From positions 27,766,773-27,830,772 of the forward strand of contig NC_049980.1 of the NCBI RefSeq assembly GCF_000003815.2: a stretch of DNA of 64,000 bases. Direction: 5' to 3'. The notes below the pieces were generated by a model. The model was not told the DNA's origin, did no database searches, and saw only the letters and a list, made by a program, of their open reading frames with translations. Both the position numbers and the translations under genes were made by a program. Positions 3,485-63,829 of this stretch are shown piece by piece (positions within the stretch are counted from its first letter, which is position 1; the number at the start of each line of letters is the position of its first letter). This DNA comes from Branchiostoma floridae. Taxonomy: Eukaryota > Chordata > Leptocardii > Amphioxiformes > Branchiostomatidae.

Positions 3485-6400
3485 ATGGCGACCCAGTTGG
3501 CCAAGATGACCCGCACCGCTGAGAAGAAACAGCTCTCAGCCCTGAACGGCCAGTTCGCCTCCTACATCGAGAGGGTGCAGGCCCTGAACCAGAGCAATGC
3601 CGCCCTGGAGAGTCAGCTGCAGGCCGTCCAGGCCAAAGCCGCCCCCGTAGACAAGGGGAAGTACGAGGGGATGCTGAGTGCGCTGCGCGCTCAGGTGGAC
3701 GGGCTGTCTCAGCAGAAGGCTCAGTTGGAGTCCGAGAGGAACAGCTGGCAGTCGCAGGCGGAGGAATGGCAGGGAAAGTACGTTGATAATATTCTATTGT
3801 TGCACGAAAGCGCGAATGATTTACGCGCTCTCTTGGCACCCTCGGCGCTCACTGAGCGCTCTCCTGGCGCTCATCGTTGGATTGCCGTCCTTGGCGCTCT
3901 GACGGCGACTGTTTCGACCCGGGTCGAAAACAGTCGCGGAGGTGATGGCGACCTGAGTGACCATGGCGTTTCCATGGCTACCGTGGGCGATTTCGCTACG
4001 CTCTCGTAGCGCTCTTACCAATATTAGGTCGCAGAGAGAGAGCGCGGTATTACATATTATTAAATTGAATATTAACTGCCTCCTTATGTTAGCTTCTACC
4101 TAAAACGTGGTTTGTTTGTTGAATTGGTGACAGTAAAAAAAATTGGGCTATATCAAATTGTATAAACATGCATGGTTTTCCTTATCAATAGGTGCGAAGA
4201 GCAGTATACGGTGCGCTCGGGGCTGAAGGCCGAAATCGAGAAGAACAAAACGGTTAGTCCTAGTCCATTAGTTCTTTTGATACAGTGTAAGAAAAAAAAT
4301 GTACCGACTTAGATTAACCTGTTATCTTTCAAACAAGGAAATTTCTTTTATGTCTGTTTAAATACATGTAACGAGGATCCGCTTGATTGACGTCATAGTA
4401 GCAAGAGTGCAAGATGGTAACGAAAAACGTAAAGTTGACAGCCCGTTTCTTTTAGTTAAAGAATGGTGGAACATTAGCAATTGTTTGACTAAGATAAGTT
4501 TCTTTACCGCCATAATACAACCCTCAATACAATTTTTGTACTTGTTTAAAACTGATTTTTGGGGTATCTTACTACCTATAGCTAGATGTCTAGCCTTCAA
4601 CGACGTAAAAGACCTTAATGTTTTAGGAACTGGCAACCATCAACGCTGCTCGTTCGGGCTTCGAGAGCAGGCTGGTGGCCGCGCAGGGAGAGATCGAGGC
4701 CGTAAATAGGACTAACTCTGCGGTAAGCACGTCCGTCTGCCTGTCTGTCTGCCTGTCTGTCTGTCTGTCTGCCTGTCTGTCTGTTATACCAACCATTCAG
4801 TTGCAATAAAAAACATTCGCAAGTCTTTCAAATCCGTTCCTTGTCAAATTATCAAGTTATGCATCAATGACTTCTTTTATTAGTAATCAGATTGTAACCG
4901 AAAAACCTTTCCAAGCACACAGTGCAGAAACTGTTTAGTAATAAAATCCAGAATAAAGTTTACTCCATTTATACGCATCTTACGCATGATACGTTCTTAT
5001 ATCATAGATTACAATGGAAATGTACTCTAGGAAATAATAAAGAAACCTTGTACAAACCTGCTAACAGTTGTTGCATTTTACAGGAGATAGCAGCTATGCG
5101 GGGAGAGTTGGCCCGGACTGTGACTGCGATAGAGGCAAAGCAGGCGGTTGTGACTGGACCGGACCTCAGCGACACCCTGAGGGAGATCCGTGAGCAGTAC
5201 GAGGTGGTCGGCCAGGCGAACAGGCAGGACGCTGAGGCAAAGTACAGGGAGAAGGTAAGAACATATAACGTGTATCTTGAATTGTGTGTTTGAAATATAG
5301 TTTTTTTGTAACATAACTTCTACAGGTAAAAATACCCAAAACGACCGAGGAACTTAAACTCGTACCGCCTTTAACTAAGCGAACGACGTAAGCATGCAAA
5401 CGTTATGTGTGGACATTATGTATAGTTTAAAGTGTGGCCGGCCATGTAACCATACCAATTTATACAAGGTAGATTATGTTGATGCACATATATGTAGATG
5501 GCAGTTAAATCAGAAATTGCCAACTGCTCGTACAATTTTTAATGATTCAATACCATACCATGTTACCAGTTAGCTTTTCCAATGCAAAGCCTAGTATAGC
5601 ATGTCATTACGTACTATTCCTTTTATGTGATAGTTTGTATTTATAACCTAAGTTTGCGGAGATAGCCCTGCAACGGCAGAAAGACAGCGACGCTCTGGCA
5701 GCCGCCAGGGCAGAAGTGGCTGAGTTCCAAAAGAAGATCGACACCCTGAGGGCCGAGGCCGAGTCTATCAGGAGCAAGGTGGGTAATGTTACCAGTATAG
5801 GTAGGGGCTGGCTGTTGGGGGTATAGTGGGTCTGTGAATTATATCTGAATTTGGCACGCTAAACAGCACGAATACTAACAACCAACTGGACTCCTCGATC
5901 ACATGGACTGGTGCATCGTAGCAAATTTAGGTCGGTGATTGAGCATTTTTAACTGCTATCTTTTGAGCTTGTTTGGACGTATCAAATTTGCTATGAATTT
6001 ACTCTGTTCTATATGTTCCTATTTATCGTGACAATTCCCTGCTGTGATCATCGCCAGGCAAACTCATACATAATCTTTAAAATGCACCTGTTCTCTTGTA
6101 TCTGTAACAGAACATCGCCATGGAAGACGGCATGAACCAAACGGAGACCCGCATACAGAAGGAGATGGAATCGTACAGGCAGGCCATCGGCAAACGCGAG
6201 GCGCAGATCGAGCAAATGAAGCTGGAGATTGCACAACATCTCACCAACTACCAGGAGCTGATGAACGTCAAGATGGCGCTCGACCTCGAGATAGCCGCTT
6301 ACAGGAAGCTGTTGGAGGGAGAGGAGATCAGGTACAGGCACAGTTTTGCCATGTTTTCTGTTCCTATGCATCATGCCGAAACTGTATTCATTTCTAACCC

Positions 6401-6787
6401 TGTCAAAGCTTTGAAAAAAAAGAGACTTAAAGCAACTCCTTTGAACTGTATGCCATACGAAACGGAAAGATAAAAGGCATACCTCATATGAAGTGTATAT
6501 TTACCATGATTACATTCTGTAGCTTAATTTTCCTGACTTCTTTTCTTAAACCATATATAATTCATGTCAGACTCTATGTTATTTTCTTTGTAAGTTGTCA
6601 AGCGATGGGTAAAACCGACGCATTCCACATTTTTAAATGCCATCGCAAAAAAATCCTAATTATTATCTGATTGAAGCAAATCTGCTCGTGTTGCCTCAGT
6701 GTAGTTCGTTTTGTTTTCAAATTAGCAAACGTCTAATCACCATCTTTATTTTTTTATTTGTCCCATAGGCTGGCCGGTCAGGCTTAG
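3485..6787 (+). CDS. Cytoplasmic intermediate filament protein, P family (gene 1)
   Basis: Seven coding exons: 3485-3777, 4192-4252, 4627-4722, 5084-5254, 5653-5778, 6111-6331 and 6769-6787. All introns are GT-AG, the frame holds at every junction, and they encode 328 residues. The head is very short (about 13 residues). Coil 1A contains [19 protein letters not shown]. Coil 1B is the short chordate form. Coil 2 ends in the helix-termination motif YRKLLEGEE at residues 313-321, and the tail is only LAGQA. There is no nuclear localisation signal or CaaX box, so it is not a lamin. The product should polymerise into 10-nm cytoplasmic filaments, probably with a partner IF protein. A conserved frame continues beyond the TAG stop (see findings). 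A likely poly(A) signal lies at 7470-7475. The closest paralog is gene 5 at 34039. Confidence 0.93.
3818..4055. mobile_element. MITE-like insertion in intron 1 of IF gene 1
   Basis: The insertion is GC-rich and full of GGCGCTC words. Its ends are imperfect inverted copies: GATTTACGCGCTCTCT on the left and AGAGAGCGCGGTATTAC on the right. The same sequence is in intron 1 of gene 5 (34370-34625) but not of genes 3 and 9. It contains a near-perfect 33-base palindrome at 3905-3937. It has no coding capacity. Confidence 0.5.
4731..4786. repeat. CTGT/CTGC tetranucleotide repeat beside a splice donor
   Basis: The tract lies 8-10 bases after the exon 3 donor of gene 1. Shorter versions occupy the same place in the other P genes (21895-21911, 35287-35317, 61628-61652). 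Confidence 0.85.
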
Positions 6788-6982
6788 TCGCCCCAACCGG
6801 TTCAGACGGCCCAGACCCCCGAGCCAGTGGCACCAACACCTGGATAAAGTATTCGGCCATGCCATCGTGGAACGTTAGGACGTAATGTATTATCTAATAG
6901 CGAGCCTCTAATAGATTTGATATATGTAACATTCATTGGGACAAGCCAAAACTATTAACCAAGGTACCGTACAAGGAAGACG

Positions 6983-7141
6983 AAGGAAGGAATGGCAAGA
7001 TGGGAGGATTATATCAAAGAATGGACAGGCATGACACAAAGTGAAACACTGAGAAATGCAGGAAGCCAGGAAGAGTTGACAAAAAAGGCTACAAGATCTT
7101 CCGTGGTGGCATGTCCCTCAAATAGCTCGACTAAGGGATAG
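6983..7141 (+). mobile_element. LINE C-terminal fragment in the 3' UTR of gene 1
   Basis: From 6992 the frame reads MARWEDYIKEWTGMTQSETL, then an Arg-Ser-Ser-Val-Val segment and a stop at 7139-7141. The RWEDNIKEWTG-type motif is typical of the extreme C-terminus of LINE reverse transcriptases. The same fragment, more worn, lies in the 3' UTR of gene 5 (37540-37700), so it was inserted before those two genes separated. Bases 6788-7475 otherwise look like 3' UTR ending at AATAAA 7470-7475. Confidence 0.6.
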
Positions 7142-7619
7142 ATGACACAAAAAGCGTTGATTTTAAAGATGCCATGTATGGACGGTTCCATGATTATGAA
7201 TGGATGTCCTCACAGCGCATGTTACTCGTGAACACCACAGTTGCTATTCTGATAAGAAAATTACGATATAGCAGCAAAACTGGTAACACGATATATATCA
7301 ATAAGAAAGCATGTTTCTAAGTTACGTAACTACACACTAGGTTCGCGAACAGCTAGATACAGAGTAAATGATAGACGTGAAGACAATAAGCACCACATGT
7401 ACGTCACGTTAGTGCACCTTAATTGGAAACTACTGTGGAATATGTATCAGATGTAGAAGCACCGTACGTAATAAAAGAAGATCAAACTTAAAGAATTATT
7501 TCCTGAATGGTTCATTGCTCGTGTTTTCTTCTTCAAAACGTAGATTCCATTTCTTTTCCATTTGTTTTTCACTTCATTATCAGAAGCTGGTAACCGCAGA
7601 TAGCTAGAATCTGTAGCCG

Positions 7620-7785
7620 TTAGCCAACAATGATGTCATTCGGCATGTCCATATCCAGAACCATCACCCCGTCTCTAGGTGACATGTAGTGGGACTTGAC
7701 GGCAATTAACTGGCATTGATCTTTGTTGGTTGCTACACCAGTCGATGAAGACAAGCTGCTGCCAGCGGTGACCTGCCTCGTTGGC
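7620..7785 (-). pseudogene. GH10-like glycosidase C-terminal remnant, copy 1
   Basis: On the minus strand one frame reads ANEAGHRWQQLVFIDW. A shifted frame reads SPRDGVMVLDMDMPNDIIVG and then a stop at 7622-7620. Related pieces lie at 26612-26430 and 38290-38110, each downstream of and antisense to a P-family IF gene. The pattern of an RW..L...W segment followed by an FRGF.G.-type beta-strand segment resembles the end of animal GH10 (xylanase-like) proteins. That assignment is from memory and tentative. The copy is frame-broken and lacks the catalytic region. Confidence 0.35.
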
Positions 7786-8072
7786 CTATTACATGAAGGA
7801 TTATGAAATAACGAGGACGTAAAGTTGCATTACTATTGGTATCCTTTCGCTTAGCATACTGCAGTGAAACAATGGCAATTTCCAAAAATACTAGAAGATA
7901 ATAGAAATGTATTAGAACAAAATAAATAAATATTCATGCAATCCTTTAACAGTGAATATCGTTAAATACTTATCCGCGCGGTAGATCAACAAAAGCCAAA
8001 TGACGTATAGAGACAAAGCTGAAGTACAGCACTTAAGGAGATGACATAGATTTTAAGTAAAATCAAGTTTAG

Positions 8073-8920
8073 TCCTATTCAGACCTATTTAGGCCTTTTT
8101 GTCAACCTTGGGAGTGAGAGGCCTTTGGGGGTCCACCCCTTCTAACTCCTGCAACTCTTCAACGACTTATTGTATGGACACGAATGCTGTAGACATAACG
8201 ATAGATTTCAAGAAGTCTGACGCAAGATGACGTAATTATGACGTCATCAAATTTACTGTATTGGCTGGAACCATTAAAGATGGGTATTCCTAGAAAACCT
8301 CAAGCTATGCTACAACAATGTAACAGCAAGTGCAGATAACAGAATAATAATGTTTCTTTCGACTTATGTTGCCAATAGCAAAATCAATGACGTCAAAATG
8401 ACGTCTTCCAAATCTAAGTTATCAGTTGGGCACCGCCATCCTCTAGCCATCACCTTGAATTCAAGACAAAAATAATTTTTTTTAGAGAAAAATAGCAAAG
8501 AAATGAAATAGACTAAATCAGTTTATTTAGATATTTTTGATGAAAAAATACCTGGTAGTTGCAAGTTTTACGAGATAATAACTTAATTAAAGCTAAATAT
8601 TTTTGACCAGGTCATATGGTCCGCCATCTTTCATATTTGATAATGTAAAATAATGTAAGTAACATAAGATTTTATTAATGTAATGAAATAGCAGTAATAT
8701 AGCAATTGAAAAATGTATACAATGTTAAAATCAAAATTAGACATTTTTGTCAAAAATGCCTATCAACAAACGATTACCATGGCAACACGAAAAACAGGAC
8801 AAATCTTCAGTCTCTATAAAGTTGTTGCCAACTAAATGTTAGGAAAATTCATTAAATATGGTGGCTTTAACTTAAGCTGTTCTGGTGTTATACAATATAA
8901 AAGTAGGCACAGGCCTTTTA
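8073..8920 (-). mobile_element. Non-autonomous TTAA-family DNA transposon (B subtype)
   Basis: The left end TCCTATTCAGACC is a worn copy of the terminal repeat CCCTATCCAGACCGGG seen at 12777. The interior matches 12777-13718 along its length (paired TGACGTCA words, TACCAGGTAGTTGCAA-like block, TGCCATGGCAACACGAAAA). It abuts the A-subtype copy that begins at 8925. No transposase is visible. Confidence 0.6.
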
Positions 8921-8924
8921 ACCC

Positions 8925-9420
8925 TGTCCAGACTGGGGGCTAAAAGTGCCTGCACCAACTTTGACATCGTATAGCTCCCAAACGGATTGTGCTAGAATAG
9001 CCAAACTTGGTGACTTTTCCTAGAGTATTGTTGACAACGATCAACAAAAACTTATTTCTATGGTAACGGGTTTCTGAAAGGCATCTGCAAAAATCAATAA
9101 TTTTGGTTTAAAAAATGGGAGTTTAAGATTTTTGGCTGAAATACACTTCTTTTCATATATCTTTAATATCTGACATATCTTAGTGTGATTTCTATTATTA
9201 AATATTCATAAATTTTGCTAATTGTGATGACGTAATTGGTTAAAATATTCCAGATGGCTGACAATACCATGATGAAAAGTATAGCCAGCTTATTTTCACT
9301 TGGCTTTCATCACTACTTTGTATTTTCTTTAAAAAAAAACATTCATATGAACGTTTTCAATCCATTTTGATGAGATTTTAGCGTTATATGTTGACAAAAA
9401 ATGTATCTTAAGGGTCATTG
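8925..9420 (+). mobile_element. TTAA-family DNA transposon (A subtype), truncated
   Basis: TTAA is followed by CCCTGTCCAGACTGGGGGC and then AAAAGTGCCTGCACC. This is the A-subtype left end, as at 12559. Similarity continues through the CTCCCAAACGGATTG and ATGGCTGACAATA blocks and fades near 9410. Bases 9420-10300 hold no gene I can support; the only structure noted there is an imperfect hairpin near 9855-9920 (GGCGGCGTTCTCACGG paired with CCGTGAGAGCGCCGTC). Confidence 0.55.
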
Positions 9421-10805
9421 CATGAGAAAACCAGGAAAAAACAGGCAGATATCGGAAGATAGGGGTCAGCCAAATTCACTCATATTTTGTATGTGGGGTT
9501 GGTGGGTTTAACCTTCACCAACCATACAATTAAAACTTCTCAAGTATCTTTGACTATGGAGTTCTGGGATCCCCTTAGTGACTCTAAAAAATCAAGGCAT
9601 TTTGAGCTAAATTTGTCAAAATTTTGATCCCTGTCCTTGTAATAGTAGAAAAAGTATTTCGATTTTGATTTCCAGATGCCCTAAATAAAGCAGTTTCTTA
9701 CTACAAAATCTGGGGCCTCGCCATTGTCTTATAGATATAAGAATAACGAGTTTTAAGAGTGTTGTTGTCTTTTCTCAGTCAAACCTTATATTTTGAATGA
9801 CACTTAAATTTTATGTGTAAACTTTGCACCTTCTATGCTTTGTCCTCGGTTTGGGGTGGCGGCGTTCTCACGGCGATGAGGCAAATTTACGTAGCGGAGG
9901 CACCGTGAGAGCGCCGTCACAATTAAAATGGGGATATAACGTCCGGCAGAGCAGCACACGAGTTCAGTTACTCTTTGCCTGATGATTAAGAACGTCCGTC
10001 TGCTTATTAAACTTTAAATGATAGAAATCCGTTAATCTTTTATTTAATTTAACAAAATCGTTGCTCAGGCTGTTGCTAAGGATGTTTCAGATCGCACTTC
10101 ACAACAAAGCTAATACATAGAAATACATTTTCTGAAGTGTTTTGCTGTAATGACCTCAGTAGAAGTGTAAGGAAAAGTGCCAAACTGTTTAATGTTTAGC
10201 AGATGCAGAAACAAGTTTTTTTATGTCATTTCTGTCAGAATCTTTAGCAAAACTGTTGCTCAGGCCTTTGGTACTGGGGTATTCAGTCATGTTTCAAGCA
10301 AAGGAAAGCAAAGAGTCAAGTTCCCTTTTACATGATTTTATTCCTGTCATCTCTTATATCATGTATTACTGTTAAAATGATAATTGATTGGAAATGCTAA
10401 TTTCTACATGGGGGATATAAGAATACCCGAAAAGGAATTGATTTTACACATTTTTATTTTTGATCTTTTACGTCATTCAGTAAATACCTACTGCATCACT
10501 GCGTATATGTAGTATGTCGCATACAATAAAGAATATTCGTGGAAAGGACTACATCATGCATATTGAAATTTATCTAGAAACAAATGCGATATAATAAAGA
10601 TCAAGAACAAGGCTATTCTGTGATGAATACAAGTAATTTCCCCGATACAGTATGACATCATATGGCTCCGCTACATAGCGCGAACTGCAGACTAAGGTGG
10701 ATACAATAGGATCTTCTCTCAAGAGCTGGAGGACTTAATTTCCATCGTGACCGCACGCCTGACCTCACGGCTGCATGGTGACATCAGGACTGCTGACCTC
10801 AGGAC

Positions 10806-13800
10806 TTAGAACTGAAGAGCCTGCCATATGGGTAGAATTTATGAAATGATTATAATAAGGAGTTGAAACATACAATGACGACACTTTCAGTTGTTCCGTG
10901 TTTTGAAGATTTCCCAGATTCATTTTCAGATAGAGATTTCTTTTACTGAAACGCAAAAGAAAAGCGGATCCGCAGAAATTAACTTCGAGTCAGCTTACGG
11001 ATGGCTTATTTGACAGAAACTGCCATTTTTGCACGTTTAGGACTATTTTGCCATATTGATGCGGCAAAGTTTATATAAATCAGTAATTTTTCATACTCAA
11101 TATTGCCACATACGTTATCTGAGCAATTTGTCATGAAGAAAATACTGGGATGGTGGAAAATCAACCAACCATTGTGTTATAAAACTTTCAAACTAATCCG
11201 TATCATAAACATGTTATTATGGAAGCATTCTCACCCCAGTTCCTCCCTCCAGTAGCTTCCTGTAGGCCGCAATCTCCACGTCCAGCGACATTTTGATGTT
11301 CACCAGCTCCTGGTACTCCACGCTGTGCTGGGTCATCTCCCCCCTCATCCTCTCCATCTGTCGCTCCAGTTCGGCGATAGCGGCCTTGTACTCAGCAATC
11401 TCCCTCAGTCGGCGGGCCTCTGTTTCCGCCATGGTCGACTCCAGCGAACCGGACTATTATAAAAACAGGTAAGAAAATGCAGTAAATACTAGTATCTACT
11501 AACATAGTTTCGTCAGATCAAACATATACTCTACGTATAAACGTGTCTAAAGAGAAGATTGTCAAAGCAGCATCCCCCATCTGCATACCTAAGTTGTTCA
11601 GTAGGGTGCAGGTGGCTGCATTATAGATCTCTTACAGTGTCATTCAATATAACCCGGTGACTAAATATCAATCGAGGTCCCGCCGTGCCCCCGACGTTGT
11701 GTCCTTAGAAATGGCAATTTACACGACCTACCTCACTTCACCCAGGTGTACATTTGGTACCGTTGGGGTCAGGGAGATAAAAGAAAAGACTACTTTTACT
11801 GTCTGACTGTACTGTGTATTTGGCACTCTAATATTTCAAACTAGAATGCAGTGCCACATTGTTCTCGTCTGTTCAAAGCAAATAGAGAAAAAATAGTTAC
11901 ATCGTTACATCGTTTTTCCCTTTCGCGGTTCATACTGGCCTCACATCTGTTTCTAATATGGAATTCATGCATTTGTGTCAATGGACCAGATTATTGTTAA
12001 AAATTGAAGGTCCTTGGCTTTCGCGATTTTCCGTTTTTTTTCCCCCAGATTTTCAGATGTTTAGGACTGCAGACTATATCTTTCATGTATATCTATCACT
12101 GCATGCTACCACTATCACGTTGGTGGTAGTTCTTCTATATGGTAGACAGAATTATAATATAGACGATGACCCAACCTTGCTCCTTAGAGCCTCTGTCTCG
12201 CCGGTGATGGACTGTAGAGTCACCTTCAGGTTGGTCAGCTCGGACCGGAGGGCGAGCAGAGCCTCGTTATCCGCCTCCCGCTGCCGGGACAGCTCGCTGA
12301 ACTGGGTGTGGAAGCAATATCATCTTTAACCTGTTTTGGTTGTATGTTTGTTTCGTTGTTTCTTTGTACATCTGTTATTTCTGACTTCATGCTATATCAT
12401 ACACATGAGCTGGTGTGTTACGCCGAAGGGCGGTTGTACAGGCTATGTAGATACAAATGCGGATACAGATACCGGCGTCAACCCTAGTTTCTGAACTTGT
12501 TATGCAAATACATGAGGAATGTCAAACATAGCAACATTCCAGCAACTGGAATACTTAACCTTATCTAGATCGGGGGGGGGGGGGGTAGCTAAAAGTGCCT
12601 GCGCCTTCTTTAACGCCGCATAACTGTCGAATGACGCGTGCTAGGACAACGACACTTGGTGACTTTTCCTGAATAATTATTGGCAACAGTCCCACCCAAA
12701 AAATCGACTTTTCATGTTGCCATGGCAACGGGTTTCTGACAGGCATATTTTACCATATCTACTAATTTCAGTTTAACCCTATCCAGACCGGGCTTTTTTG
12801 GTCATCCCTGGACCGGGGGGGGGGTGGGGTTGAGGCCCTCCACTTCTAAGTCCTCTAACTATTGAACGACGTGCCGTAGGGCCACCAAATTTTTAGGACA
12901 TGATATCGACATAATATCCGACGAGTATATGACGTTTGATGTTACGTTGACGTAAAATGACGTAATTATGACGTCATCAATTGTAGCCGGACCCATGAAA
13001 AAAGGGTATTCTCAGAAAACTTCAAGTTATACTACAAAAATGTAACAAGAAGTGCAGATTGCAGAATAATAATGTTTATTACGACATGTATTGCCAATAG
13101 CAACATCGATGACGTCATAATGACGTCCTAAAATGACGTCCTGCACATCTAAGATACGAGTTAGGCTCCGCCATATTATATCCACTACCTTGAATTTTTA
13201 AAAGTACTTTTTTTGCGACAAATAATCACAAAAGACAATGGAAATAGACTAAATTCATTCATTTAGATGGTTTTTGATGAAAAAATACCAGGTAGTTGCA
13301 AATTTTAAGGGATAATTAGCTTGTTATTCTTGATCTGGCCATGCGGTCCGCAATCTTGGATTTTGGGCTGATGACGTCATCAAATTAGCATAATTGATGC
13401 ATATATAATTATGAAAGATATGCTAAATAATTTAATATTTTATTTATGTATCAAAATAGCAGTAATATAGCAAAGAAATGTGAAAAATACATTGTTAGAA
13501 CCAAAAATAGTGATTTTTGGCAAAACTGCCTGTCAGCAAACGGTTGCCATGGCAACACGAAAAAATTGAAAATTTGTCAAACTTCGTAAAATTGTTGCCA
13601 ACAATATTTTTGGAAAACTCACAAGATTTGGTGGCTTTAGCGTATGGCGTTCTGGCGTTATAGGACATCGAAGTTGGCGCTGGCCTCAAAAGCCCCCCCC
13701 CCCCCGGTCTGAATAGGGTTAAATTATGAGATTTCAAAGTTTTCTTGCTAGACCTCACTTGCTTATCCATATCATTAACCTTGTTATTAACCTTATTATT

Positions 13801-15748
13801 ATTAATCTTAACTTACATTGATAATTAGATATTCCTAAGCGATGCTGATTTGATGACGTCATGGGTCAAAATCCATGATGGCGGACAATGTCATAATCAA
13901 CGGTGAATGCTTGTTATTTATACTCAAATTTTGTCAAAATCTTTCACTTTTTTACAAAACACAATCACTTAAACCTTTTTAGTCCCCTTCTATTGGGTTT
14001 TGGCGTTATATTTAAAAAACACTTATTTTAAAAAAATTCATGCTTGTCGATACTAGATTTTCTAACGTCATAAAGGCGGCAGTGTCCTCGTTATTGGGAA
14101 TAAAATACTTGGCAGACTTAGATACTCATAAGATACCCTTAATAGTAATGCTTTTGTTTAATACCGCTAAATTACATTAAAATTTAAATAAAACTTTACC
14201 AGGACATGATTCTCTCTAAATTTGGTGATCGTAACCCAAGCCGTTTTGAAATTACGAAGGAGTCCGGTCTTGATAGGGTTATATTAATGCACTTTAATGT
14301 CGTGCGAACCGAATTTCTTCTTGGGAAAAACGCTCCCTAACATCACAATATTGCTACATTTTCTATATCCGTACTCTGATTGATAAGGTTCTTTTTACAA
14401 GGCCTCTGCTATTGACATCACACAAAATTACTATTGACATCACACAAAATTCAACACATTTATGCAGTGCCAGTGGGTTAAAACGTTTCATCCATTCTCA
14501 CCTTGACCTTGTACTTGGCCTCGGCCTCATCCCTGTTGGCCTGGCCCATGATCTCGTACTGCAGGCGGATCTCACGCAGCGTCTCGCTCAGGTCTGGGCC
14601 AGCAAAGAATGGCGTCTCCGTCTCAGCTATGGCCACGGCCTCGTTCAGCTGGCTCTGCACCCTCCTAGTCTCCTGCATGGGAAATACAACATTTGCACCT
14701 TGAGAAACTAGATGACCATTTAGAGTTCACTAACTGCGTGAAATGAAAGTTTACGTGAAATTTCTTTGACTTTGTAGTTTGCTGCTGAAAAACGATTTAC
14801 AGTGTAATGAGTGAGTTCAAAGGGTGCAATAATCATTCCATTTTTCGTTAGAATACATGTACCAAGAATAGGAGCTCAATAAATACACGAGGTTTCTAAA
14901 ACTACAAAGACATATTCACCTCATCATAGACCCTCTTCAGGAACTCAATCTCCTCCTGAGCTGTTGTCAGCCTGTTTTCCACTCCAACACGCTCCACAGT
15001 CGCCGCATCTACCTCCTGAAACATTGGGAATTCAAACATCTTGTATATACATAACAATACCCCAACAATGCTAAAGTTAATAATCGGATATGATAATGGC
15101 ATATCAGCACGATGAAGATCTAATGGAACGACAAACACACCTTCTTGACCGCTGCAAGTTCAGTCCTCCTTGCTGCATTTGCGGCAGTCTCGGCCTCGCA
15201 TCTGCCGGGAATCAAAGTGAATAGAACATTTAAATAATTTGTTCAGTCAAACGTCGACAATATTTGTTCTATTCTAATAACGCGCTTCATTCAAAGTTTA
15301 ACTACGAATGACTATTCAGAGAAATCAATATCCAGCCGCTTGATTTCCTTTTATTTCGTACTATAGTATCATGTGTGACTTACTTCGCCTGCCACTCCTC
15401 GGCCTGAGCCTGCCAGCTGGCCCTCTCGGCCTCCTGCTGAGCCGTCTCCTGGGTGAGCTGGTCCACCAGCGCGCGCAGCTCCGTCAGCTCCGTCTCGTAC
15501 ACCTCCGTGATGTTTCTCTCCTCACTCCGACTTGCCTCCTGGATCCGGATCTGGGTCGTCAGCTTGGTGTTGCGCTCCTGCAGGGACCGCACCTTCTCGA
15601 TGTAGCTGGCGAAGCGGTCGTTCAGGACCACCAGCTCCCTCTTCTCGCCACTGCGGGTCACCCTGGCGTCAGCGAGGGTCTGCACCGCCCCATCGGTGGC
15701 GATGTAATACTTTCCGCCGCCGACTCCAGCTCGTGATTTGGTGGCCAT
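10806..15748 (-). CDS. Cytoplasmic intermediate filament protein, M family (gene 2)
   Basis: Exons on the minus strand: 15748-15384, 15201-15141, 15015-14920, 14672-14502, 12301-12176, 11453-11235 and probably a tail exon 10820-10806. Exon sizes are 365, 61, 96, 171, 126 and 219 bp, with GT-AG introns and an open frame. The head of about 35 residues contains [14 protein letters not shown]. Coil 1A reads [18 protein letters not shown]. Coil 2 reaches AAYRKLLEG, but the following EE is lost through a 2-bp deletion relative to gene 4, giving GGTG. If the conserved donor at 11234 is used, the protein ends ALQF (350 residues). If the intron is retained, it ends VRMLP. Intron 4 carries nested transposons and intron 5 a SINE. 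A possible minus-strand poly(A) signal lies at 10458-10453. The nearly identical paralog is gene 8. Confidence 0.85.
11655..11810. mobile_element. tRNA-derived SINE remnant in intron 5 of gene 2
   Basis: It contains CACGACCTACCTCAC, CACCCAGGTGTA and GGTACC..GTTGGGGTC. These match the body of the SINE in the same intron of gene 8 (53427-53650), where the tRNA-like head is better preserved. The shared position shows insertion before the gene 2/gene 8 duplication. Confidence 0.55.
12559..14283. mobile_element. TTAA-family DNA transposon (A subtype) in intron 4 of gene 2, itself interrupted
   Basis: It lies between TTAA at 12555-12558 and TTAA at 14284-14287. The left end is CCTTATCTAGATCGGGGG and the right end CCGGTCTTGATAGGG, inverted relatives of one another. 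The matching intron of gene 8 reads ATACTTAATGCACTTTA with nothing inserted, which is the empty site with a single TTAA. TTAA targets and CCCT-type ends suggest a piggyBac-like non-autonomous element. A second element (12777-13718) sits inside it. Confidence 0.7.
12777..13718. mobile_element. Nested TTAA-family DNA transposon (B subtype)
   Basis: It is flanked by TTAA at 12773-12776 and 13719-13722. The left end is CCCTATCCAGACCGGG and the right end CCGGTCTGAATAGGG, inverted matches over about 15 bases. It is 942 bp long with no transposase frame. It interrupts the A-subtype element, so it is the younger insertion. Confidence 0.75.
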
Positions 15749-16380
15749 GGCGTGTCCTTAGAGCTTCGAGCGTGATTTTAGTTTGAAACTAGCAAGACCG
15801 TCTAGGCGGTATGTTCTGGTGCTAGAGTTCTGGTTCTTTACAGTTTTATCATGGTCCACGCCGTCACCTCCTGCCAATAATTTCCTCGGCCAGCGAAGCT
15901 CGCTATTGGTGAACTGCATCGTTTCAGATTATAGCAACCCATTGGTTCCTGGTTTCAGTGAGGTTTACAAAGGACATAGCTGACCTTAATGTGTCAGCGC
16001 ATCACATGTTCCATGACCTGTCTTTTGTACCAAATGGCTTCAAATAGAAAGCAATTCATGTGCTTGCAAACTCCATAGTATGTAGGGCAATCAACTATTT
16101 GAGAAAACACATATCTTGAAGCTTGTTAAGGGGAATACGCGTCAGAAGTGTTTTGATTTTTCTCTGTCCAAAACAAGTATGATTTTTTAACAGTTTATCT
16201 ACACGCAATGTGTTAGTATTCATTTCTAGATTTCACACTAAGTCTATATTCTTAAACTTCAAAAACAGACTTGTCTGCTTATTGCTTGGTGGAACTTGGA
16301 TGGAATGCAATGCTTGGAAATAACCGGTCGTTATTATTTGGGGCAACAAAATGTTTGATTTAAACCACGGAGACACCATC
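15749..16380 (-). promoter_or_regulatory. Conserved upstream block of M-family gene 2
   Basis: This region is shared with 55568-56120, 31022-31370, 41880-42400 and 2559-2940. On the gene's strand it holds two CCAAT boxes (plus-strand ATTGG at 15905-15909 and 15941-15945) and the words ACATTGAGGTCAGCTATGTCC-like and GGAACCAATGGG. The distal part (16130-16380) is the same sequence that lies just upstream of the oppositely oriented IF gene at 42470. Bases 16380-16840 show nothing I recognise. Confidence 0.5.
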
Positions 16381-41879: not shown

Positions 41880-42400
41880 CGCCCTGTTCACATGCGAGAA
41901 CATGCCGTCACCTCCTGCCAATAATCTGCTCGGCCCACGAAGCTCGCTATTGGTGAATTGCATCGTTTCAGATTATAGAAAGCCATTGGTTCTTAGTTTC
42001 AGCGAGGTTTACCAAGGACATAGCCGACCTCAATGTGTCAGCTCATCACAGGTTCATGACCTGTCTTTTCCACCAAATGGCTTTATATGGAAAGTAATCC
42101 GCATACTTAGAAACTTCATAGTATGTAGGGCAATCAAATGTTTAAGGAAAAACAAATCTTGAAGGTTGTCAAGGGGAATATGCCCAGAAGTGTCCTGAAT
42201 TTTTCTTTCTCTCTATAACAAATAAAATTTATCAAGAGTTCATTTACATGCACTGTGTTCAGCATCACTTTCGTATGTCACACTTTGTCTTTATTCTTAA
42301 ACTTTAAAAACTGGATGGAACTAGGTTAGAATGCGATGCGTGGAAATAACAGGTCGTTAGTATTTAGGGCAACCAAATGTTTGATTCTTGCGCAGTCCCA
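41880..42400 (-). pseudogene. M-family IF upstream block without its gene
   Basis: It matches the region upstream of genes 2 and 8 from GCCGTCACCTCCTGCCAATAA onward, with both inverted CCAAT motifs. The proximal 130 bases and the coding exons that should lie to the left are absent, replaced by the transposon ending at 41861. Its distal end joins directly to the promoter area of the oppositely oriented IF gene at 42470, so it may now serve that gene. Confidence 0.55.
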
Positions 42401-43802: not shown

Positions 43803-43851
<49 letters not shown>

Positions 43852-45923
43852 TGCCGTGTTAAATAACGATCTGAACATCTTTTCTGTTTTCAGGAACTGA
43901 AGCCACTTCAGGACCAGTTGAACGAGAGTCTGTCCATTTCCGCCATGGATCGGACTCAAGAAGCCGGACCAAACATCATTGCTAAGCTGTACCAGCTGCG
44001 CCAGCTGTATGAAGACTTCTGCCGGGACATTCAGGAGGAAGCAGAGGCCAAGTACAAAGAGAAGGTAAGGTACAGATAATTTGTTGGATGCTGTGTTCAC
44101 ATACAACAATATGGTTGTAATGGGAAGGTGTTGAGTAGAAAATTAAAGGTGACGACAAAAGAATCTGTTGAGTAATCAAGAAACTTTGACATATCATCTA
44201 GATGGCTGTGGTGTAATGAAGCCGAAAAATTGTTTAGGGACAAAGACAGTGCATAGAAGGTGCCTTTTCTGTAGAATAGATGTATGAAAATGAACGTATG
44301 GTAGTAGATCAGCATAGGTAAAATACTTTCTTATGATATTATATGAAATAGTAACATAGTAAAATACCCTCTTGTGTGTGTTCCCCCAGTTCACCGAGCT
44401 TGCGCTCGAGCGTGAGCGGGACAACATGACGATGCTGGCCGCCAGGAGTGAGCTCATCACCTCCCAAAAGGAGGTGTCCGATCTTCGAGAACAGCTCAAC
44501 ACCTTGATGACCAGCACTGAGACGCTGAAACACGAGGTGGATTTACAAATCATTCATCCCACCAATAGAGGGTTCATATGTAATGTTCTGTGAAACAGGA
44601 AAATTGCACAACGCAATTACAGTGGATAACGCAACCATTCACCGCTGTTTCTTCGAAATCAGAAAAGCGTATTAATTAAGGGTTAATGACCCTCGCATGT
44701 TCCTCGGTGTATATGATGTCATAACGCCTGGTTCTTTGCTATAATCACCGGATAAAACCACCGAGTAATAACGTTATTATCATATAGCCAATCAAAACTG
44801 ACCCAGATAAGAGAGACAAATTCCTTGTTATAACACATACGTATCTATTCGTATGTCATACATATTTGTCATACCTATTCAATACTATGCCGCACAAGTC
44901 CATGAGAATTGTAAGTAACAACTTGACTTTTCAAATCAAAGGCAAACTCTGACGTCTGTGTTAGTTATTTTATCATAACGGAATACTTCATTTCGGTCGA
45001 TTGAATTTAAACTGTGTATGTATATATCTTAATTGTATTTCAGAGCAAGGCTTAAAAAAGACACAATTCAACAAGTTAAAGATTTGTACAATATTGCTAG
45101 AACCAAGCGCAGCTTAGAAAAAAAAGCCGATTTACTATGCTACAGACAACAAAGATATCCTAAAAGTAAACTCCTTGTTGGGATTGCCGAAGTTTCTGCC
45201 TTCTATTGCCGCCACTGGTTCTCCCCTGGTATTCAACTTTTGCTGGTTTCTTGTGTCTCCTTAAACTTCTTTTGACTCAATCAGTGACTACAAATCTGTC
45301 TCAGAGATTTCTTTGTTGTCATAATGCAGAATTTCCGTACAGAGTTTCGTTTGAAACATGACAGGCAAAGATTGAAGAATTTCTGCATTGTGGATCGTTG
45401 CAATTAAAGCGTTCTGTTTTCAGTCGTTTTGTTTATGTTTGACTTAAATAGAAATAAGTTTTATCATTTCATTTACTTTAAGTCTATTTTAAGACCGTAA
45501 ACTTTTTTCTCTTTAAACAAAGAAAGGTGCTATTTTTGTTATCAGAAGAGCCACCACCCCCTGCAATGTCCCTCGTTCTCTTCAGCTGGAGGGATGTAAT
45601 CATACTTTTCATACTTTTGGTCGACGATTATGTTACTCTCTCATTCCGACTGCTAAGAGTCATGTAAATTGGTCCTTCTGAGTTGTTCAAAGTTTCAAAA
45701 GTCATTAACAACCGGTTGTTTATAAAACTATTTAATTAATTGTTGTTAATGATTTTCCATGTGTTATGGTGTCATAAACAACATGAAATGGGGACTTCTG
45801 ATTGATCAACATTCCCTGGCTATATGATAATCAAATTTAGCAATGACTGCTTTTTTGCAGAGCTCGTCTTCTTCATCTATCAACGTCCAGCAAGTAACGA
45901 TCACTTCTCAGACAGTCATGTAA
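42470..45923 (+). CDS. Divergent intermediate filament gene lacking the coil 2 end exon (gene 6)
   Basis: Exons: 42470-42933, 43326-43386, 43524-43619, 43894-44064, 44390-44536, and a probable tail exon 45861-45923. The first five keep the family phases. The head is long (about 65 residues, Ser/Arg-rich), and coil 1A reads MNNLFASYIEKMRSFQQRN. Exon 5 is 147 bp rather than 126, one heptad more. No exon encoding [11 protein letters not shown] is found between 44536 and 45861 on either strand. Joining exon 5 to the last exon keeps frame and gives the tail SSSSSSINVQQVTITSQTVM, 333 residues in all. The chosen ATG has AAA before it; an in-frame ATG at 42419 would add 17 residues. AATAAA lies at 46521-46526. 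It could be a functional short IF-like protein or a gene recently disabled by exon loss. Confidence 0.75.
43764..43849. repeat. (GT)n microsatellite in intron 3 of gene 6
   Basis: A long interrupted GT tract about 45 bases before the exon 4 acceptor. Confidence 0.95.
45044..45275 (+). other. Unrecognised open frame preceded by a splice-acceptor-like site
   Basis: TTGTATTTCAG precedes an open frame that starts in phase 2, runs 76 codons (first residues ARLKKDTIQQVKDLYNIART) and ends at TGA 45273-45275. Its first half is lysine/arginine-rich and helix-prone; the second half is hydrophobic with Cys and Trp. The phase does not fit exon 5 of gene 6, which ends in phase 0 and would give SKA-stop. 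It is not IF rod sequence and I do not recognise a family. It may be part of an inserted element that replaced the missing exon. Confidence 0.25.
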
Positions 45924-46526: not shown

Positions 46527-46539
46527 ACATCAAAATGCT

Positions 46540-48450: not shown

Positions 48451-48454
48451 AACT

Positions 48455-49510
48455 CGTTATGGCGACTGAATAGGAAGCAGTGCTGAAGGTGATTGTGAAA
48501 TATGTGGTAACGATTACATGACCAATTCAACTTCACAGAGCCTTAAGTCAGAATTTGCGGTTCACCGTGGGGTCACTTTCATAACCTTTATTCTAATTGA
48601 AGACGTAAAGACATATTCTAAATATGTTCATGAATGGAATGTTCTTGGCTGTCACAGTGATCCACGTGTGATATTTGATTGCCCCACATAGCCGAGCTGC
48701 GGTATGCTTTGTAAATCGTCCTAGTCAGCGTCTGACCGGACCACATCAGCCGATGACCTACTAAGGAGTATATCTGCTAACGGGGGCCGCCCTAAAATGC
48801 CCCCTGCCCTAAGATGCCCGGATTTTTTGCTGATCTTATTATGCATAAGTACGCCGTGTTTGATGCCACTGACTATGATGATTAGAAAGGTAAATAAACC
48901 AAGTCCAAACAAACAGCTATTTTTTCCATTAAAAAAATATGTACACGTATTCACTTCCATTCTTTTTGAAGACAGAATTTTCACAACAATGTTGGTATCG
49001 CCGAATCACTGTGGTCACCTGTTACTAGGTATTGGTGGCTCGTGTCCCTAAATGTACAACCAGTACAAAACAGCCACACAACTGCCAAGAAATAAAGCTT
49101 CACAAAACACTACAAACATTGGTCTTCAAATGTTTGTTGAGTAGAAGACCGGCCATAGAAAAACAACGTAAGCATCACCGCCGTTGTTTTACCCAGGGAG
49201 TGTGGCCCCGCAGGTGGCAGACGAGCGAACGCCCAAAAGATTTGTACTCTAACAAATGATTCGTACCGTCTATATAAGTTAAACTTCACAGAGTGATGTC
49301 GAATACAGTTGTAACGCGGAGGGTGAAGGGTCCATGAACAGTAAGGATGCCTTCCTTATTGAAGTATGGTCTCTAGATGAATGTGTTAAAAATTCCTTGA
49401 TCAAAACTTCTAGCAACTAGTGATGGAGCGCCGTAAAAAAGCGGGCATCTTGGCATCTTAGGGCGGCCCCCGTTATATAGGTCATTTCTTGTGGCTTCCT
49501 AGGCACTTAT
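48455..49510 (+). promoter_or_regulatory. Upstream block of the broken P-family copy, split by a transposon
   Basis: Bases 48455-48777 and 49476-49510 together match the block before the P genes (TGATCCACGTGTGATATTTG, then GGTCATTTCTTGTGGCTTCC). The DNA transposon at 48780-49473 separates them. The proximal 200 bases of the block, with the CCAAT and AP-1-like words, are deleted. Confidence 0.55.
48780..49473. mobile_element. Non-autonomous DNA transposon, TA target
   Basis: The left end ACGGGGGCCGCCCTAA and the right end TTAGGGCGGCCCCCGT are exact inverted repeats over 16 bases. Subterminal copies of AAGATGCCC follow on both sides. TA lies at 48778-48779 and 49474-49475. Intact paralogous blocks (for example near 33800) show the uninterrupted sequence CTTCTATATAGG at this place. 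It is 694 bp long with no recognisable transposase. A TA target suggests a Tc1/mariner-type mobiliser, but the ends are not a family I can name. Confidence 0.7.
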
Positions 49511-50130
49511 GTGCACAGGGACGAATTGATGAATGCTAAACTGGCGCTTGATATCGACATAGCCTCTTACAAGAAGCTGTTGGAGGGAGAGGAGATGAGG
49601 AACAGCGACAGTTTCGCCATGTTTAGTGACTCTACGCATCAGGCCAACAATATATTCATTCGTAGCCATGGCAAAACTTTGAAGAAAAAAAAACAGCAAG
49701 TCATTTGAACTAATTGCACGTGAAACGAGAAGATAAAGTGTACATTCATGGCAAATGTACCTCACCTCACCTCACCGGTCCCATAGCCTCACCGGCCGTA
49801 GGGGCAGCACATCCATCAACATAAGTTTTCCACCCAGGGCAAATGTACACTTCACATGAAATGTGAATTTACCATAATTCCATTCTGTAGCTTAATGTTT
49901 TGTCAGGCTATGAGACCGGTGAGGTAAGGTAAGACACTTGAAGTAAAAGCAGATGATTTTCACCTTTAAAGAAGCCATCGCGAAAAACACGCAATTGTTG
50001 TCTGATTAAAGGGAATCAGCACGTATTTCCCCAGTCTATTTCGTTTTTTGTTAACTAGCCTACGTCTAACCACTATCTTTATTTTGCCCCATTATTTTGT
50101 TCGGCCAGGCTTAGTCTTCCATGCCGGTCG
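49511..50130 (+). pseudogene. P-family IF pseudogene: end of coil 2 and tail only
   Basis: Bases 49522-49611 encode ELMNAKLALDIDIASYKKLL and then EGEEMR, the second half of exon 6. They are joined directly to the P upstream block at CACAGGGAC. Exons 1-5 and the start of exon 6 are missing. The exon 6 donor GT has become GA. A tail-exon remnant at about 50102-50150 reads GQA, then TAG, as in genes 1 and 5. A short inverted-repeat insertion (arms near 49765-49791 and 49909-49935, around ACCTCACCGGTC) lies in the former intron. Confidence 0.8.
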
Positions 50131-50154
50131 AAATCACCGAGCCAGTCGGTCTAC

Positions 50155-51761: not shown

Positions 51762-54700
51762 TTAGAACTGAAGAGCCTGTCATATGGGTAGATTTTATGA
51801 AATGATTATAATAAGGAGTTGAAACATACAATGACGACGCTTTCAGTTGTTCCGTGTTTTGAAGATTTCTCAGATTTATTTTCAGATAGAGATTTCTTTT
51901 ACTGATGAGAAACACAGAATAAAAGCGGATCCGCAGAAAATAACTTCGACCAGCTTACGGATGGCTTATTTGACAGAAACTGCGTATGTACGTTTAGGAC
52001 TATTTTGCCATATTTTATTCGTCAAAGTTTATATAAAGCAATAATTTTTCATAGTCAATATTGCCACATACGTTATCTGAGCAATTTGTCCTGAAGAAAA
52101 ATGCTGGGATGGTGGAAAATCAACTAACCTTTGTGTTATAAAACGTTCAAACTAATCCGTAACATAAACATGTTATAATGGAAGCATTCTCACCCCAGTT
52201 CCTCCCTCCAGTAGCTTCCTGTAGGCCGCTATCTCCACATCCAGTGACATCTTGATGTTCACCAGCTCCTGGTACTCCACGCTGTGCTGGGTCATCTCCC
52301 CCCTCATCCTCTCGATCTGCCGCTCCAGTTCGGCGATAGCGACCTTGTACTCAGCAATCTCCCTCAGTCGGCGGGCCTCTGTTTCCGCCATGGTCGACTC
52401 CAGCGAACCGGACTATTATAAAAACAGGTAAGAAAATGCAGTAAATACTAGTATCGTCTACTAACATTGTTCCGTCAGATCACACATATCCTCTACTCTG
52501 TATTAACCATGTCCTAACAGGGCGCGTGGGGGGGGGGGGGGGGGAGGCTGTGGGGCTAAAAGTGCCTGCGCCAGCTTTGACGTCATATAGCTCCCAAACG
52601 GCTAGTGCTAGAACAACCAAACTTGGTGATTCTCTTGCTAAACTAAACTTCTTTTCATATATCTTTAATATCTAACACATCTTAGTTACACATTTATGAT
52701 AAAATATTCATAAATTATGCTAATCAGATGACGTAATTGGTCACAATCCAAGATTGCCGACAATATCATGCTGAAAAGTATCACCAGCTTAGTTTCACTC
52801 GGATTCCATCACTACTTTGTCTTTTCTTACAGAAAACATTCATGTGAACGTGTTCAATACATTTTCACGGGGTTTTAGCGTTATATGTTGAGAAAAATGT
52901 ATCTTAATACATTTAAGGTTGATAATCCAAGATGGCGGATAGCTAAACTACAGTTGACGTCATTCTATGACGTCATTTTGACGTCGTTGCGTGTGCTATT
53001 GGCAACAAAAGTATTAAAACACTGAAATATCAGTAAGAAACCTTTATTGGTAACTTTTTGAGTGAGATATTGAGGTATTATGGGCATTCCCCTTTTTAGC
53101 CCCCCACCCAAAATTAATGACGTCATAATTACGTCATATTATGTCATAATGATATAAAGATTTCAGGATTTATCAAATTTGATGAGCATAACACCCCCTG
53201 CAAATTTGGTGATCATACAGTAAGCGGTTTTGAAAATACCAAGGGGGGGGGTCGAAAGAGCACCCCCCACCCCTCCAGTCCAGGGAAGGCCCAAAAAGAC
53301 CAGTCTGAATAGGGTGTCTGAAGAGATTTTCAAAGCAATATTCCCCACCTGCATACCTAAGTTGTGCAGTAAGGGGCAGGTGGCTACACTGTAGATTACT
53401 CACACTGTTATTCAATATAACCCGGCGACGCGTGCGGCGTAACTGGTAGAGCTTTTAATTCGGAGACTAGAGGTCCTGAGTTCGATACCCGCCATGCACC
53501 CGACTCTGTGCCCTTAGGAAAGGTAATTTTCACGACCTACCTTACACGCCCAGGTGTAAAATGGGTACCTGGCTTCGGTTGGGGTCGGGGAGGTAAAAGA
53601 AAAAAACTACCCTTAGATTATCGTTCAAAATTTAAAGGTTCTTGCCTTTCGCCTTTTTCAGTTTTTTTTATCAGATTGGTAGTTCTTCTATAGGGTAGAC
53701 AGAGTTATAATATAGACGATGGCCCAACCTTGCTCCTTAGAGCCTCCGTCTCGCCGGTGATGGACTGTAGAGTCACCTTCAGGTTGGTCAGCTCGGACCG
53801 GAGGGCGAGCAGAGACTCGTTATCCGCCTCCCGCTGCCGGGACAGCTCGCTGAACTGGGTGTTGAAGCAATATCGACATTAACTTGTTTTGGTTGCATGT
53901 TTGTTTCTTTGTATATCTGTTAGTTCTGACTTCATGCTACATCCAACTTATAAGCTGGTGTGTTACGCCGAAGGGTGGTTGTACAGGCAATATAGATACA
54001 TAAGTGGCTACAGATATCGGTGTCAAGCCTAGTTTCTGAACTTGAAATTCAATTAGATGAGGAATATGAAACATAGCAACATTCCAGCAACTGGAATACT
54101 TAATGCACTTTAGTGTGGGGAAACAGATTTCTACTTGGGAAAAATGCCAAAGAAAAACAACAATAAACGAGCGATTCTTTTTCAATGTTTGAATGTAAGC
54201 GTCACAATATTGTACATTTCCTATATCCGTACTCTGATTAATAAGGTTTTCTTTTACAAGGCCTTTGCTATTGACATCACACAAAACTCAACATATTTAA
54301 GCAGTGACAGTGAGTTAAAACGTTTAATCCCTTCTCACCTTGACCTTGTACTTGGCCTCGGCCTCATCCCTGTTGGCCTGGCCCATGATCTCGTACTGCA
54401 GGCGGATCTCACGCAGCGTCTCGCTCAGGTCCGGGCCTGCAAAGAATGGCGTCTCCGTCTCAGCTATGGCCACGGCCTCGTTCAGCTGGCTCTGCACCCA
54501 CCTTGTCTCCTGTACGGGAAACACATCATAGATAATCACCCACTGTATACTTTCTCCGTCAAATAAAACTTTAAGTAGGAAATCTTCAATGATTTGTGGT
54601 TTCTTGCAACTGAAAAAAAAACTATTAACAGTGTAACGAGTGAGTTCAAAGGGTACAATAATCATTTCATTTCTTGTTAATAGCATACATGTACCAAGAA

Positions 54701-55567
54701 TAAGAGCTCAATAATTCACGTGGTATCAATCTAACACTACAAAGACATATTCACCTCATCATAGACCCTCTTTAAGAACTCAATCTCCTCCTGTGCTGTG
54801 GTCAGCCTGTTTTCCACTCCAACACGCTCCACAGTCGCCGCATCCACCTCCTGAAACATATCGGGAATTCAAACATCATGTATAAACAATACTCCAAAAT
54901 AAGGTTCAGAATTGGATATGTTGATGGCATATCAGCACAATGAAGATCTGATGGAACGACAAACACACCTTCTTGACCGCTGCAAGCTCAGCCCTCCTTG
55001 CTGCATTTGCAGCAGTCTCGGCCTCGCATCTGCCCGGAATCAAAGTGAATAGAACATACATTTAAATCATTTGTTCATTCAAACGTCTACTCTGATAATG
55101 CGTTTCATTGAACGCGTATACTATGAAGAACTATTAAGCGCAATCAATTTTCAGTGGCTTGATTTCTTTTTCTTTTGTTTTAAAGTATTATGTGTGACTT
55201 ACTTCGCCTGCCACTCCTCGGCCTGTGCCTGCCAGCTGGCCCTCTCGGCCTCCTGCTGAGTCGTCTCCTGGGTGAGCTGGTCCACCAGCGCGCGCAGCTC
55301 CGTCAGCTCCGTCTCGTACACCTCCGTGATGTTTCTCTCCTCAATCCGACTTGCCTCCTGGATTCGGATCTGGGTCGTCAGCCTAGTGCTGCGCTCCTGC
55401 AGGGACCGCACCTTCTCGATGTAGCTGGCGAAGCGGTCGTTCAAGGCCACCAGCTCCCTCTTCTCGCCGCTGCGGGTCACCCTGGCGTCAGCGAGGGTCT
55501 GCAGCGCCCCATCGGTGGCGATGTAATACTTTCCGCCGCCGACTCCAGCTCGTGATTTGGTGGCCAT
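51762..55567 (-). CDS. Cytoplasmic intermediate filament protein, M family (gene 8)
   Basis: Exons on the minus strand: 55567-55203, 55029-54969, 54850-54755, 54509-54339, 53854-53729, 52412-52194 and a probable tail exon 51776-51762. Structure and length (350 residues if the tail exon is used) equal gene 2, including the [17 protein letters not shown] head segment and the 2-bp loss that turns LLEGEE into LLEGGTG. Without the last splice it would end VRMLPL. Differences from gene 2 are few and scattered. Intron 5 carries a SINE shared with gene 2 and a transposon not shared. Intron 4 is the empty site for the transposons of gene 2. Homology between the two loci runs from about 51257 to 57420, so the whole gene with both flanks was duplicated. 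Confidence 0.85.
52507..53314. mobile_element. TTAA-family DNA transposon (A subtype) in intron 5 of gene 8
   Basis: TTAA at 52503-52506 is followed by CATGTCCTAACAGGG, a G tract and AAAAGTGCCTGCGCC. The right end is CCAGTCTGAATAGGG. The same intron of gene 2 reads CGTATAAACGTGTCTAAAGAG without the insert. Confidence 0.65.
53427..53650 (+). mobile_element. tRNA-derived SINE in intron 5 of gene 8
   Basis: The head has an A-box-like GGCGTAACTGGTAGAGC and a B-box GAGTTCGATACCC at tRNA-like spacing. The body contains CACGACCTACCTTAC, CGCCCAGGTGTAAAATGGGT and ACCTGGCTTCGGTTGGGG. The tRNA-like part would not fold into a complete cloverleaf with a matching acceptor stem, so it is a SINE, not a tRNA gene. 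Confidence 0.7.
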
Positions 55568-63600: not shown

Positions 63601-63829
63601 CATAACAGAACATCGCCATGGAAGACGGCATGAAGCAAACGGAGACCCGCATACAGAAGGAGATGGAATCGTACAGGCAGGCCATCGCCAAACGCGAGGC
63701 GCAGATCGAGCAGATGAAGCTGGAGACGGCACAAAATCTCACCAACTACCAGGAGCTGATGAACGTCAAGATGGCGCTCGACCTCGAGATAGCCGCTTAC
63801 AGGAAGCTGTTGGAGGGAGAGGAGATCAG
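60613..63829 (+). CDS. Cytoplasmic intermediate filament protein, P family (gene 9), 3' end outside window
   Basis: Exons: 60613-60905, 61143-61203, 61523-61618, 61859-62029, 63142-63267 and 63609-63829, all with intact GT-AG sites and phases. Together they give 322 complete codons. The rod is nearly identical to gene 5. The helix ends [11 protein letters not shown] at the exon 6 donor. The tail exon should lie beyond 64000, so whether its stop codon is TAG or TAT cannot be seen. Intron 1 lacks the MITE of genes 1 and 5. Intron 4 carries a reversed TTAA-family element. Confidence 0.92.
62195..62608 (-). mobile_element. TTAA-family DNA transposon (A subtype), reversed, in intron 4 of gene 9
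   Basis: It reads as the reverse complement of the A-subtype left half, ending GGCGCAGGCACTTTTAGCCCC. The block TGCCATGGCAACACGAAAA is included. It is absent from intron 4 of genes 1, 3 and 5. Confidence 0.55.

Follow-up and report, generated by a model that had tools for sequence, protein, structure and literature searches.

The window, by which we mean the whole stretch of 64,000 nucleotides of Branchiostoma floridae DNA analysed here (C2:27766773-27830772), is the middle part of a larger array of intermediate filament (IF) genes (Table 1). The seven IF genes of two families that the original prediction had named as intact (P1, M2, P3, M4, P5, M8 and P9) each have six rod exons with open frames and GT-AG introns and, as it had also stated, the P genes lie on the plus strand and the M genes on the minus strand, tail-to-tail. 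Position 3485 is the start codon of P1 and 63829 the end of rod exon 6 of P9. Exons 2–6 of these genes measure 61/96/171/126/219-221 nt, and the models up to the rod end correspond to proteins of about 36-37 kDa (P) and 39-40 kDa (M). Pfam Filament (PF00038) matches exon 1 of P1, M2 and N6 and exon 6 of P1; M4 exon 6 has an IF-domain score of 74.2 bits, and the full rods of P1 and M2 match vimentin (8rve) at 161 and 182 bits. A third family, N, represented in the window by N6, was absent from the earlier two-family scheme. The P pseudogene of that scheme is a remnant, psiP7, which keeps its upstream block and, at about 49511-49737, the last part of exon 6; a search for its exons 1-5 gave no match. 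The M gene held to be lost after P5 has left M-type upstream DNA alone at that place. The partner of P9 placed outside the window is M10, which carries a single in-frame stop in exon 4 and is otherwise open.

The array was surveyed with 140 kb flanks added around the window, in a genome of 513,431,437 bases in 431 contigs. It comprises at least 23 IF loci across ~170 kb (10 P, 8 M and 5 N), a lower bound because a few runs of N bases fall within array regions. From left to right, the loci run Ma Pb Mc Nd Pe Mf Pg Nh Pi Mj Nk in the left flank, P1 M2 P3 M4 P5 N6 psiP7 M8 P9 in the window, and M10 N11 P12 in the right flank. The strand rule holds at 23/23 loci, with all P and N on plus and all M on minus, and 9/10 P, 7/8 M and 4/5 N copies are open. 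Three modelled exon ends lack a GT donor: exon 2 of P12, which has GC, exon 4 of Nk, which is cut short, and exon 5 of N11. The outermost flanks searched, the rightmost 18 kb and leftmost 17 kb fetched, hold no extra IF exon. Further along the chromosome, a dispersed copy of the P3 upstream DNA and exon 1 lies at C2:28359046-28359748 (L030 246-948) with 96.9% identity, and no other exon was found within the 4 kb fetched around it. Our literature search found no paper on this array, which carries little weight, most subscription papers being beyond its reach.

Table 1 Features of the IF array in the window (window positions; exons in order of transcription).
Feature	Position	Strand	Exons or remarks
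M-type upstream relic abutting P1 block	2547..2930	-	82-86% to M2 and M8 upstream regions
P-type upstream block of P1	2931..3484	+	self-blastn
P1	3485..6331	+	3485-3777, 4192-4252, 4627-4722, 5084-5254, 5653-5778, 6111-6331; open, GT-AG
P1-M2 spacer	6332..11234	.	duplicated in other units
M2	11235..15748	-	15748-15384, 15201-15141, 15015-14920, 14672-14502, 12301-12176, 11453-11235; ends LLEGGTG
M-type upstream region of M2	15749..16360	-	self-blastn and upstream pair comparison
P3	20757..23670	+	20757-21070, 21395-21455, 21789-21884, 22262-22432, 22875-23000, 23450-23670; most divergent P
M4	28727..31021	-	31021-30636, 30471-30411, 30282-30187, 29943-29773, 29345-29220, 28947-28727; most divergent M; LLEGEEL kept
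P5	34039..36893	+	34039-34331, 34751-34811, 35179-35274, 35633-35803, 36217-36342, 36673-36893
M/N upstream region	41899..42386	.	M to its left gone, N6 to its right present
N6	42470..44536	+	42470-42933, 43326-43386, 43524-43619, 43894-44064, 44390-44536; without exon 6
Proposed in-frame last exon of N6	45861..45923	+	SSSSSSINVQQVTITSQTVM, then stop; in frame in 4/4 readable N copies
psiP7 (P remnant)	48464..50085	+	P upstream block 48464-48758; exon 6 end and 3' flank 49511-50085
M8	52194..55567	-	55567-55203, 55029-54969, 54850-54755, 54509-54339, 53854-53729, 52412-52194; ends LLEGGTG
P9	60613..63829	+	60613-60905, 61143-61203, 61523-61618, 61859-62029, 63142-63267, 63609-63829

Upstream DNA is specific to the family, as had been proposed: all pairs match within P (45/45), within M (28/28) and within N (10/10). 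The cross-family matches (M-P 7/80, N-P 2/50) are nine in all, 28-37 nt long, each to P1, which adjoins the M-type relic; no M exon match was found for that relic. M and N are a separate case. Set in reverse orientation, the M upstream DNA matches that ahead of N6, Nh and N11 in 24/24 pairs; for Nd and Nk, whose distance to their M is 2.1-2.5 kb, the figure is 0/16. Between M10 and N11, with start codons ~940 bp apart, the upstream DNA is a single common stretch. Upstream DNA that is P-specific at one end and common to M and N at the other thus makes P> <M N> the repeated module, with M and N back to back. Stretches leading from an M or N gene to the next P (16849-20172, 46214-48490 and 57443-60074) contain repeats with common sequence, in tandem and dispersed copies, and a reverse-transcriptase frame (PF00078) of a mobile element lies between M8 and P9 (window 56083-56979). 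The P leaders contain an A-box-like motif within 70 bp of the ATG in 9/9 open P genes (window 3417-3484 for P1) and a B-box-like motif, also within 70 bp, in 8/9, P1 being the exception. We rejected a tRNA- or SINE-like leader, since these motifs come without an Rfam match (one P5 leader at a loose threshold, and the window at the gathering threshold) and no tRNA was found.

Joint duplication of P and M, as originally predicted, stands in so far as blocks were copied: the non-coding spacer between the two genes is duplicated along with them, which shows that P and M were copied as one block. The spacers of Pb-Mc, Pe-Mf, Pi-Mj, P1-M2 and P9-M10 align in 10/10 pairs over 62-100% of their length at 77-86% identity, and P1-M2 is covered by Pe-Mf to 100% at 85.8%. 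The P3-M4 spacer, compared with the other five (5 of 15 spacer pairs), reaches a coverage of only 6-11% and is not aligned. Two units, Pg-Nh and P5-N6, lack an M; both retain the flank 3' of P as well as the M/N upstream region, their spacers are alike in pieces along their length, and the tree pairs Nh with N6 as sisters at support 100. On the right, the ends of the missing M segment lie ~100 bp apart in the two units, and on the left they fall within repeats. We read this as probably a single loss of M, after which the M-less unit was duplicated; two separate losses are less likely.

Block copying changes what joint duplication can say about function. Neighbours in a block get copied together, so a functional link is unnecessary to explain it, and the proposal that P and M multiplied jointly because their products are needed in stoichiometry is not supported here: copying extended to units without M, one of the P loci is just a remnant, and there are 9 open P against 7 open M. 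Since M-less units also multiplied, copy number is no argument for stoichiometry; more generally, the array illustrates that co-duplication of neighbours alone is no evidence of it. Physical linkage alone would likewise account for joint copying, and for the spread of M-less units, if the array had grown by neutral amplification through unequal crossing over, with no partnership and with products that pair with themselves or with IFs from elsewhere.

The matching of P and M trees, which the original prediction had put forward as a test, gave no match apart from the P3/M4 outlier. Distances among P and among M correlate at 0.91 over the six tail-to-tail pairs, with 101/720 permutations as high (53/720 on codon positions 1 and 2), and this value is carried wholly by P3/M4; without that pair it is -0.25 (n=5; 90/120 permutations as high). 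Other pairings show no distance match either: r is -0.31 (n=8) for M and the head-to-head P of the next unit, 0.19 (n=5) for P and N within one unit, and 0.02 (n=4) for N and the P of the next. Tree support is low in M (37-65) and mixed in P (58-96). In both families the nearest copy differs from exon to exon, as expected under recombination or conversion. P3 and M4, which belong to a single unit, are each the most divergent of their families, in dN more than in dS; this could be shared relaxation or co-evolution, in one case.

These mosaic affinities bear on two alternatives. For neutral amplification, the mosaic exons and unmatched trees fit, as does the lack of a hetero charge preference described below, but most copies are open and dN is below dS in 12/12 chosen pairs (p 0.04 or less, uncorrected). 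The ratio of mean dN to mean dS is 0.37 in P (36 pairs), 0.36 in M (28) and 0.40 in N (10). Together with the headless P proteins discussed below, this makes amplification without partnership look unlikely to us. The array might instead boost the dose of one abundant filament system, with interchangeable copies kept alike by gene conversion; the exon-by-exon change of nearest neighbours in P and M and the low mean dS between copies (0.125 and 0.126 for P and M) are what such a history would leave, yet the protein sequences of P3, M4 and the N copies have diverged, which means that not every copy can stand in for another. We give dosage a real chance, short of an even one, and it is compatible with the reading that we favour, in which P and M co-assemble and N modulates them.

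The closest relative sampled is Q27051, which has the full set of six rod exons and lies ~0.6 Mb to the left of the array (C2:27.05-27.07 Mb); it is 48% identical to P1, 57% to M2 and 47-50% to N. A rod tree was built from seven outgroup rows and 15 array gene models, out of 22 in total (9 P, 8 M and 5 N). It unites P, M, N and Q27051 in one clade with support 99 and leaves five other amphioxus IF rows and human vimentin outside; within this clade, P joins M with support 99 and N joins Q27051 with 68. The tree samples a minority of the other IF places of the genome; five outgroup rows are X-filled, being without exon 2 and some ends, the lamin row is joined from two loci with its extra coil-1B stretch omitted, and human vimentin was cut at what we take to be its exon boundaries. 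Coil 1B is short in P1, M2 and N6, with no long insertion relative to vimentin. In lamins and protostome IFs, coil 1B carries a 42-residue insertion, which chordate-type cytoplasmic IFs lack.

The tree and the charges bear on the parallel drawn at the outset with keratins I/II. The clade of P, M, N and Q27051 stands apart from three amphioxus rows (X18, X16 and X19) that are presumably keratin-like, a label we assign from their motifs, and the window genes do not divide into acidic and basic partners, with a pI of 5.3-5.9 for P and 4.9-5.0 for M. Keratin scores over coil 2 speak for P and M being orthologues of the two keratin types arranged as pairs: P scores higher with type II than with type I chains (K5 63.6, K1 61.3, K14 52.8 and K10 43.9 bits), and M gives K14 62.3, K10 58.1, K5 60.1 and K1 40.7 bits. 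Over coil 1B, however, keratin 1 (type II) is matched by both M (45.2 bits) and P (24.4 bits), with no type I chain among the matches listed, and the best match of both families is vimentin, though it is the sole full-length cytoplasmic chain among the matches. With the keratin-like genes outside the clade and both families acidic, we disfavour keratin orthology and regard it as extremely improbable. The parallel thus stands by analogy at most: both systems have two IF families in many tandem copies, and joint assembly, known for keratins, is proposed for P and M from their genes. P and M differ in belonging to another clade, in lacking acid/base pairing and in being interleaved in one array, whereas vertebrate type I and II keratin genes lie in separate clusters.

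The three families are truncated in different places. Ahead of coil 1A there are 10-19 residues in P, 34 in M (41 in M4) and 68 in N. At the other end, which is the most conserved part of IFs, the motif LLEGEE closes the rod in 9/9 open P (as LLDGEE in P12) and in 1/8 M; M4 reads LLEGEEL, and LLEGGTG replaces the motif in the other 7/8. In M2, M8 and M4, the 3/8 M genes examined for this, the next likely acceptor after exon 6 leads into TAAAA, and M is apparently without a tail. For P, the reading past exon 6 is not conserved among copies, and no tail exon is settled. As regards charge, net g-e' scores between chains give no signal of P-M complementarity, which we therefore set aside: they are 8 for P1/P1, 12 for M2/M2 and 12 for P1/M2, and 6 for P3/P3, 16 for M4/M4 and 11 for P3/M4, in a crude count with heptad registers from a simple core score.

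N proteins, encoded by five copies, would comprise coil 1 and most of coil 2. All four readable copies run from exons 1-5 directly to a proposed in-frame last exon, SSSSS..VQQVTITSQ, and LLEGEE is missing from them together with its exon; exon 6 sought beside these copies was absent, the best score being 2.1 bits against 128-135 for controls. The gap from exon 5 to the last exon is just 183 bp in Nd. N6 exon 5 exceeds that of P and M by one heptad, and N11 exon 5 continues to its GT through an in-frame repeat of its last ~22 codons. Loss of so conserved a part could mean that the N genes are pseudogenes, and a one-base frame slip in Nk exon 4, just ahead of the run of N bases that hides its end, and a dN/dS of 0.56 for Nd-N11 (a weak test, p 0.033) agree with that. 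Exons 1-5 are nevertheless open in 4/5 copies, the last exon is in frame in 4/4 readable ones, and N6-Nh gives a dN/dS of 0.21 (p 1.1e-11), so that we consider decay of the family quite unlikely. N would offer a natural test of the role of the rod end, a part thought indispensable.

Truncation offers a better argument for partnership than joint duplication does, above all in the near-headless P proteins, as judged from the gene models. In the accessible text of PMC11900225, headless type III IFs fail to assemble, and loss of part of exon 6 leaves GFAP unable to form filaments, with aggregates in astrocytes that express GFAP of their own. According to the portion available of PMC4351089, headless vimentin needs intact vimentin in order to assemble, K14 assembles with K5 when its head is missing, tail-less K8 does so with tail-less K18 or K19, and in C. 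elegans headless IFA-2, whose partner is IFB-1, is functional and tail-less IFA-2 is not. Because headless type III IFs need an intact partner, P most likely needs one with a head, and homopolymers of P, as neutral amplification would allow, become improbable on these partly seen sources. M is the natural candidate, being the neighbour and duplicate companion of P, and hetero-assembly of the two is plausible; the differing truncations suggest that P, M and N may need one another for building or controlling filaments. Against partnership stand the unmatched P and M trees, the M-less P-N units and the missing P-M charge complementarity. Since tail-less IFA-2 is non-functional, two tail-less partners may not suffice everywhere, and a partner for P or M could be encoded elsewhere instead.

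We therefore lean, with somewhat more belief than doubt, towards an array of P> <M N> modules, block-duplicated and reshuffled, whose P and M products co-assemble and whose N products modulate them. P, M and N would descend from a single cytoplasmic IF gene resembling Q27051, as the tree suggests, each family having been truncated differently: P in its head, M in its tail and normal rod end, N in its rod-end exon. Repeated duplication of whole blocks and loss of single genes built the array, and recombination between copies, to which the exon affinities point, would have reshuffled them. P, presumably unable to polymerise alone, would co-assemble with M as supplier of the head, in a pair evolved separately from keratins I/II, and N would terminate or modulate P/M filaments. 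Should P need M, amphioxus would have an IF pair with an origin independent of keratins I/II, and pairing rules could be compared between independent cases. A bolder version, on which we would bet against, is a three-part IF system outside the keratins, with the features of one protein split among P, M and N of one module, a common M/N upstream region driving both genes, and N capping or limiting P/M filaments.

We know of no gene array from work on A3 and B2, two small Branchiostoma IF proteins. These form heteropolymers according to the part of a review available to us (PMC5040974), and are co-expressed by the title of Karabinos et al. 2002; they resemble P and M as small amphioxus IFs, compared by description rather than by sequence. 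C. elegans IFA/IFB is likewise a heteropolymer with one partner functional when headless, in the accessible parts of PMC4351089 and PMC5040974, but there the head was removed experimentally and the IFA-2 tail is needed. Lens filensin and phakinin also co-polymerise, and filensin without its first 29 residues still formed filaments; unlike P and M, they are vertebrate lens proteins, and the filensin tail region is essential, as far as the text seen of PMC10626283 states. Separately from these comparisons, a cysteine occupies the same position of coil 1B in 9/9 open P and 8/8 M, where N and Q27051 have a tryptophan; it is a core position by a crude register, and an in-register disulfide is possible.
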